This document shows, piece after piece, positions 3,223 to 63,971 of a stretch of 64,000 bases of DNA. Every line of letters begins with the position of its first letter. Position 1 is the stretch's first letter. The translations under genes were made by a program, and so were the position numbers. Origin of the DNA: Acidobacteriota bacterium (GTDB lineage Bacteria; Acidobacteriota; Holophagae; Thermotomaculales; Thermotomaculaceae); contig JAADGL010000030.1 of assembly GCA_013152385.1 (NCBI GenBank), positions 1 to 64,000 of the forward strand, in the 5' to 3' direction. The notes below the pieces were generated by a model that saw only the letters and a program-made list of their open reading frames with translations, was not told where the DNA came from and made no database searches.

Positions 3223-3782
3223 AGGCATTCGGATATATTTGTAATGCTCATTCCCCCGTCTTCACCGGCAAGCCGCATCATTGCCCGGCGCAATTTTTCA
3301 GTCATGATCAATTGATGCGGTGTTCTCTTTATAATTTTTTTTACGCGCACAGTAAAATGACTCCGGCTATATTCCATACGTTCGGCAAGAGAATCAACAG
3401 ATAAGCTCCGCAGTTGTTTATCACCCATATCCCTTAGCACCTTGCCCAACCTGTCCCGGAAATGACTCTCAGTCTCAGTCTCAGTTAAAATGCTAATAAT
3501 CCCTTCCACCGCCGCATCAATCATTTGAGCTCTGGTTTCAGCAGGCTCCAATTTTTCTACAATAGAATGATATAAACTCAACAGTTTCAGTGAGTCCTGC
3601 AGCTCAGTTGCTGCAATAACCATTCGAATAACTCTTTCCAATGATTTCCTGATGCTATCCGATTTATTATTAAGCGACCTTGCCAGCAAGTTACGGATTT
3701 CCCTACGAAATTCTTCTGCGGTGTCCTGTTGAAAACGAAGATAAATATATGTTACCAACACATTACTTACACTTGAATTCAA
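3105..3782 (-). CDS. AraC-family transcriptional regulator
   Basis: This is a 225-residue DNA-binding regulator. The C-terminal ~100 residues hold the two helix-turn-helix motifs of AraC proteins: a first helix pair around SLSVDSLAERMEYSRSHFTV, then the conserved SITNISECLGFSSSKEFRKI and FKEAFGFCPSEL. The first ~120 residues are helical and match no ligand-binding domain I can name. The start is TTG at 3782, six bases after AAGGAG. The gene reads toward the cysteine-rich protein and its transporter and ends 146 bases before that gene. It most likely controls that unit, perhaps through the inverted repeat in the spacer. Confidence 0.85.
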   Translation of the reverse strand: MNSSVSNVLVTYIYLRFQQDTAEEFRREIRNLLARSLNNKSDSIRKSLERVIRMVIAATELQDSLKLLSLYHSIVEKLEPAETRAQMIDAAVEGIISILTETETESHFRDRLGKVLRDMGDKQLRSLSVDSLAERMEYSRSHFTVRVKKIIKRTPHQLIMTEKLRRAMMRLAGEDGGMSITNISECLGFSSSKEFRKIFKEAFGFCPSELPNRTKHSPVNVSERR

Positions 3783-4434: not shown

Positions 4435-4450
4435 TTGGCACAGGGGTTGC
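4435..4450 (+). promoter_or_regulatory. Sigma-54 promoter
   Basis: TTGGCAC (4435-4441), five bases, then TTGC (4447-4450) matches the -24/-12 consensus of RpoN promoters, including the exact GG-to-GC spacing. It lies 76 bases before the start of the small membrane protein gene on the same strand. Confidence 0.8.
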
Positions 4451-4525
4451 AATGTAATAAGAGTGTCGGGCGAAAGCCCAGGATCATTGAAATAAAAAAC
4501 GGCGAAAGCCGATAGGAGGCACAAA

Positions 4526-63313: not shown

Positions 63314-63823
63314 TTATTCGACGGAAACAGTCTGCTTGAATACAACGTAGGGATTGTGGCTGCTGTCTTCCGCAACGCCCACAACAGTAATTGTCCGATT
63401 TGTATCGTTGGGGCAAAGCTCAACGGTACCGGCTGTTCCGCCGGCAGCCGCACCGACATTAACCGCAATATCAGTACAATCGTTCTGCATCATCATAGTG
63501 CTTCCGCTGTACGGGTTCTGAATGTGGCCATAATTGGTGTGAGCCAATGCAGCTGTTACCAAGTTGGTGGGAGTGGAGCCGCCGATGTTTGTCATAACGC
63601 CGTCACCGGTAGTGTCGGCGAACTGATCATTGGTGTCTGTCGCATAGGCGGAAGCCATCCAGTTCTGCAATTCTTTTGCAATATTGGCGGCATTTTCTTT
63701 TACCGCACTTCTTTTGGATTTTGCCTGCGCGCCGAGGTAACCCGGAATAGCGATGGCAGCCAGAATACCGATGATCGCAACAACGATCAGCAATTCAATC
63801 AGTGTAAAACCTTTTTTGTTCAT
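63314..63823 (-). CDS. pilA: Type IV pilin major subunit
   Basis: The 169-residue prepilin has a short leader MNKKG, cleaved before Phe6 with Glu10 at mature position 5. The hydrophobic helix TLIELLIVVAIIGILAAIAI follows. The head domain (about 60-169) has two cysteines (116, 137) likely to form a loop, and a TTGDGVM segment. It is assembled into pili for twitching, attachment or DNA uptake. The ATG follows AAGGAGG. Its own promoter and terminator make it a single-gene unit with strong expression expected. Confidence 0.95.
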   Translation of the reverse strand: MNKKGFTLIELLIVVAIIGILAAIAIPGYLGAQAKSKRSAVKENAANIAKELQNWMASAYATDTNDQFADTTGDGVMTNIGGSTPTNLVTAALAHTNYGHIQNPYSGSTMMMQNDCTDIAVNVGAAAGGTAGTVELCPNDTNRTITVVGVAEDSSHNPYVVFKQTVSVE

Positions 63824-63866
63824 ATCTTTCCTCCTTATGGAAAAATTAATAGACGGGTATTCACAA

Positions 63867-63882
63867 TGCCAGCTTCATGCCA
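63867..63882 (-). promoter_or_regulatory. Sigma-54-like promoter of pilA
   Basis: On the minus strand TGGCAT, five bases, then TGGCA keeps the GG (-24) and GC (-12) with exact sigma-54 spacing, though the -12 box is TGGC in place of TTGC. pilA genes of many bacteria depend on RpoN. The start of transcription would be about 30 bases before the ATG. Confidence 0.6.
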
Positions 63883-63936
63883 GAAAATGTATCTGTTTTA
63901 TTTTCAGCAGTTAATCTTTTGAAGCCCCGCTGCAAT

Positions 63937-63971
63937 TGACAATTTTTGTCAGTCAGTGACAATTTTTGTCA
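63937..63971. promoter_or_regulatory. Twin palindromes, likely activator sites for pilA
   Basis: The 15-base palindrome TGACAATTTTTGTCA occurs twice, at 63937-63951 and 63957-63971, exactly 20 bases apart (about two helix turns). It lies 55-105 bases upstream of the sigma-54-like promoter. Tandem dyads on one helix face at this distance are the usual layout for a sigma-54 enhancer-binding activator; the TGTC core also occurs in known PilR sites. Confidence 0.75.

Follow-up and report, generated by a model that had tools for sequence, protein, structure and literature searches.

Upstream of pilA, on the minus strand of the analyzed 64-kb stretch of DNA (hereafter the window) from an uncultured Acidobacteriota bacterium, probably placed in or near Holophagae, two exact 15-bp palindromes of the form TGACAA-N3-TTGTCA lie 20 bp apart, centre to centre. 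Sequence comparison suggests, at a probability of roughly 0.82, that these twin palindromes are paired PilR dimer sites activating sigma-54 transcription of pilA, and that pilA and two further genes form one small regulon. The two exact copies of TGACAATTTTTGTCA proposed by the initial annotation were recovered at 63937-63951 and 63957-63971, their starts being 20 bp apart. The distal palindrome TGACAAAAATTGTCA (63957..63971, minus strand) is centred at approximately -108 and the proximal one (63937..63951, minus strand) at approximately -88 from the predicted transcription start, and the arms of both are kept in relatives. With positions counted from this predicted start, both fall within the region of approximately -80 to -150 where upstream activator dyads are expected. 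Each palindrome consists of two 6-bp arms around a 3-bp centre, where, due to the TTT, the 15-mer as written is not fully self-complementary. The gap between them measures 5 bp, and the 20-bp register places the distal and proximal sites on roughly one helix face. Read along the minus strand, the order ahead of pilA is TGACAAAAATTGTCA-CTGAC-TGACAAAAATTGTCA, 54 bp, TGGCATGAAGCTGGCA, and a leader ending in AAGGAGGAAAGAT-ATG. Exact TGACAANNNTTGTCA sites were found twice in the window, compared with 0.01 expected from shuffled sequences.

The sigma-54-type -24/-12 element TGGCATGAAGCTGGCA (63867..63882, minus strand) follows the proximal palindrome at a distance of approximately 55 bp. Its GG and GC are correctly spaced and it carries one deviation at -12, CTGGCA in place of TTGCA; the promoter with sigma-54 spacing described earlier below the palindromes stands, with a non-canonical -12 part. 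Allowing one mismatch, three sigma-54-like matches were found in the 64 kb versus 2.5 expected, so that TGGCATGAAGCTGGCA taken alone is not significant; its support comes from conservation of its position in four relatives, and TGGCA..GCA does not vary among five genomes representing two genera. Transcription of pilA is predicted to start near 63856. The end of the leader, a conserved ribosome-binding site AAGGAGGAAAGAT before the ATG, covers 63824..63840 (minus strand) and is followed by the gene itself (63314..63823, minus strand), encoding a 169-aa type IV pilin (MNKKGFTLIELLIVVAIIGILAAIAIPGYL) whose N-terminus matches the N_methyl model at 1.1e-9, confirming its earlier designation as pilA. 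Elsewhere in the window, a clean sigma-54-like sequence, TGGCACAGGGGTTGCA, is present at 4436-4451 on the plus strand, with no obvious plus-strand gene directly behind it.

The palindrome had also been put forward as a motif for finding further targets near other sigma-54 promoters, and a scan of the organism's own genome returned matches only before pilins and before one further sigma-54-type promoter. Within the 2,574,910 bases (2.57 Mb), it occurs at five places, two at pilA, two on contig C48 and one on contig C9, and the reversed-pattern control gave zero matches across the same bases. The two C48 palindromes (C48:13567 and 13587) share the 20-bp register seen at pilA and lie approximately 102 bp upstream of a canonical sigma-54 site, TGGCACCTTTATTGCA. 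The gene behind them continues past the contig end and encodes a DUF11 repeat surface protein of at least 1540 aa; genes for a pilin and a prepilin peptidase are located just upstream of this locus. The single C9 palindrome (C9:2249) precedes a second pilin; at a distance of exactly 20 bp lies a degenerate partner, and 56 bp beyond the palindromes follows a sigma-54-like sequence, CGGTACTTTTCTTGC. The leader of the DUF11 gene extends approximately 150 bases behind the sigma-54 element (L037:13703-13868, L115) and contains a long block common to genomes G000 and G003, not G001. A riboswitch in this leader was ruled out, there being no credible Rfam match and no unusual folding.

Extension of the search to relatives showed the exact pair before pilA in two further species of the genus (G001 and G002). 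G001 and G003 carry the twin site of the DUF11 gene with one mismatch, and G003 that of the second pilin with three mismatches. When up to three mismatches to the 35-bp twin pattern were tolerated, nine genomes of the family yielded eight sites (three at pilA, two at the second pilin, three at the DUF11 gene) and none elsewhere, with zero matches of the reversed-pattern control at the same threshold. The sister genus (G004, G005) carries one palindrome and a looser partner before pilA, together with canonical sigma-54 elements. When five pilA regions were aligned, most arm positions and TGGCA/GCA proved invariant and the flanks variable. The strict twin pattern is absent from all sampled genomes of the phylum outside the genus, so the exact form is local; the looser form TGAC-N7-GTCA extends to family f2. 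Located near -170 and with changed inner bases, this looser form was detected in eight of the 24 class loci outside family f1 (shuffles give 0.05), and none of these 24 loci had TGAC and GTCA separated by any other gap from 3 to 13. The exact site was not found in many class relatives of families f2 and f3. Many f2 pilA promoters (L014, L015, L018-L021, L024, L033, L034) carry a conserved TTGGCAC-N5-TTGATA, which is sigma-54-like with GA for GC at -12.

A search of 84,980 species genomes detected the twin pattern in its exact form in 18 stretches, with a chance expectation well below one by rough base-composition arithmetic. In 15 of the 18, a type IV pilin start lies downstream with a sigma-54-like element in between (the pilin of one of these, L128, breaks off after approximately 19 codons); L129, L131 and L140 do not follow this pattern. 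In L131, from a Desulfobulbaceae metagenome-assembled genome (MAG), the twin site and a sigma-54-like element, TGGCATGATTCTTGC (near 3244, minus strand), precede a small non-pilin frame without Pfam match. The 15 pilin sites are not independent and were counted as about six lineages: the genus of the window; Desulfobulbaceae including Electronema; a near-identical MAG pair labelled Flavobacteriales and Gammaproteobacteria; Magnetococcales; an AT-rich group; and L130. In the uncultured AT-rich lineage of MAGs, a second pilin copy flanks the twin-site promoter of the pilin on the opposite side (L132:3405-4025, L135:4298-4849, L141:3860-3999), starting at residue 36 and missing the conserved N-terminal helix. 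Identity of this copy amounts to 46% in L132 and 41% in L135, and L141 holds broken pieces. Judged by their layout, these flanking copies resemble silent pilin cassettes for antigenic variation.

Bacterial enhancer-binding proteins bind as dimers to adjacent dyads, nucleate a hexamer there and reach RNA polymerase-sigma-54 by DNA looping. In the proposed mechanism, each palindrome would be bound by one dimer of PilR, an NtrC-type response regulator, the pair serving as upstream activating sequence. With PilS as sensor kinase partner, phosphorylated PilR dimers would sit on the two adjacent dyads and, side by side on one DNA face, assemble the AAA+ hexamer ring. This hexamer would touch RNA polymerase-sigma-54 by looping and open the closed complex approximately 55 bp downstream at the -24/-12 element, turning pilA on; we infer activation as the outcome of binding. 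The same twin site would turn on the second pilin and the giant DUF11 surface protein as members of one small pilus regulon with pilA.

The own genome encodes what such a promoter needs, rpoN as a single copy as well as pilS and pilR, the latter two in a row with the pilus genes (pilB-pilT-pilC-pilS-pilR, C18). The predicted PilR (L073:8992-10386) combines receiver, sigma-54 AAA+ and Fis-type HTH domains; since NCBIfam showed no PilR model for the protein, it was named by synteny and domains. Approximately 12 sigma-54 activators are present in this genome, which leaves room for the twin site acting as enhancer at a sigma-54 pilin promoter while being bound by another NtrC-family protein, or by activators that differ between lineages. 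Two observations point in this direction: in Desulfobulbaceae the activator adjoining the site has a helix not of the PilR type, ISYPSLL, and no FRSxRY activator was found in several AT-rich MAGs carrying the site, in a recognition-helix search that was mostly weak there. The Desulfobulbaceae twin site is situated between the pilin and a divergent pair (L127, L138 and L139, from Electronema and other Desulfobulbaceae), comprising a kinase and, in L127 and L138, a sigma-54 activator. Against another activator stand the classical role of PilR as regulator of sigma-54 pilA promoters, its encoding next to pilBTC and pilS, and L130, where the twin site has the pilin on one side and, on the other, a divergent pilS-pilR-like pair, a sensor kinase and an activator with an FRSLRY helix. 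Among the own activators whose C-termini were inspected, PilR is the sole one with an FRSxRY recognition helix, and PilR matches with FRS/FRAxRY were found across the class. Moreover, site and helix change together between families f1 and f2: the best f2 PilR match has FRAYRY, and the inner bases of TGAC-N7-GTCA are changed there. We therefore consider a different activator unlikely, and PilR the probable ligand of the palindromes.

Readings that dispense with an enhancer fare worse. As many repressors recognize 15-bp dyads and the pilA sigma-54 element is imperfect, the palindromes could instead serve a repressor or some other homodimeric regulator as operators, next to a coincidental sigma-54 element. 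However, nearly all loci have the sites approximately 42 to 300 bp upstream of the element instead of over it, and canonical sigma-54 elements recur behind independent twin-site copies, making this very improbable. The probability of chance palindromes, a plus-strand sigma-70 promoter or an RNA hairpin is close to nil. A TTGACA-16-GACAAT match on the plus strand does overlap the palindromes, but a sigma-70 promoter was ruled out there, no plus-strand gene being evident behind it and the upstream gene running in the same direction as pilA; a chance origin is refuted by counts far above shuffles and by conservation in relatives.

PilR and RpoN control of sigma-54 pilA promoters is already well known (PMC2725144, PMC6058289, PMC6211767), with PilR sites given as short half-sites, GTCT elements (PMC6058289). 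The arrangement described here resembles the PilS-PilR/RpoN-pilA systems of Pseudomonas aeruginosa, Geobacter sulfurreducens and Myxococcus xanthus in the sigma-54-type element at pilA, the upstream activator sites and the encoding of PilSR with pilus genes; TTGTCA also contains TGTC, a half-site of PilR in such systems. It differs in the strictness of the dyad TGACAA-N3-TTGTCA and its fixed 20-bp pairing, in pilA and pilSR lying on separate contigs, and in the sharing of the operator by the giant DUF11 protein gene. NmpR, an NtrC-like regulator of M. xanthus, recognizes pairs of 15-bp GCGCA-N5-TGCGC palindromes (PMC11841059). Paired 15-bp palindromes, sigma-54 promoters and an NtrC-family regulator (here a candidate) are common to both; in contrast, the NmpR palindrome has a different sequence with 5-bp arms and a 5-bp centre, its inter-site gap is 14-15 bp versus 5 bp here, and NmpR controls pilR and oxygen-use genes, whereas the present twin site precedes a pilin. 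The palindrome TGACAA-N3-TTGTCA was not found in the mostly open-access literature searched. In our best reading, the type of control is already known, and the novelty lies in an unusually sharp operator and the unexpected DUF11 target.

More tentatively, and with the odds somewhat against it, the 20-bp pair may be a pilin operator that is ancient, or that arose repeatedly, across several phyla, and which in this genus would couple the pilus to a giant DUF11 protein acting with it, e.g., as a pilus-linked adhesin. Set against the loosely described PilR sites in the literature examined, the palindrome pair provides a sharply defined operator that can be searched for in studies of pilus control, both in uncultured Acidobacteriota and in other lineages. 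From sequence alone, it outlines a regulon of three genes and nominates the giant DUF11 surface protein as a pilus-co-regulated factor.
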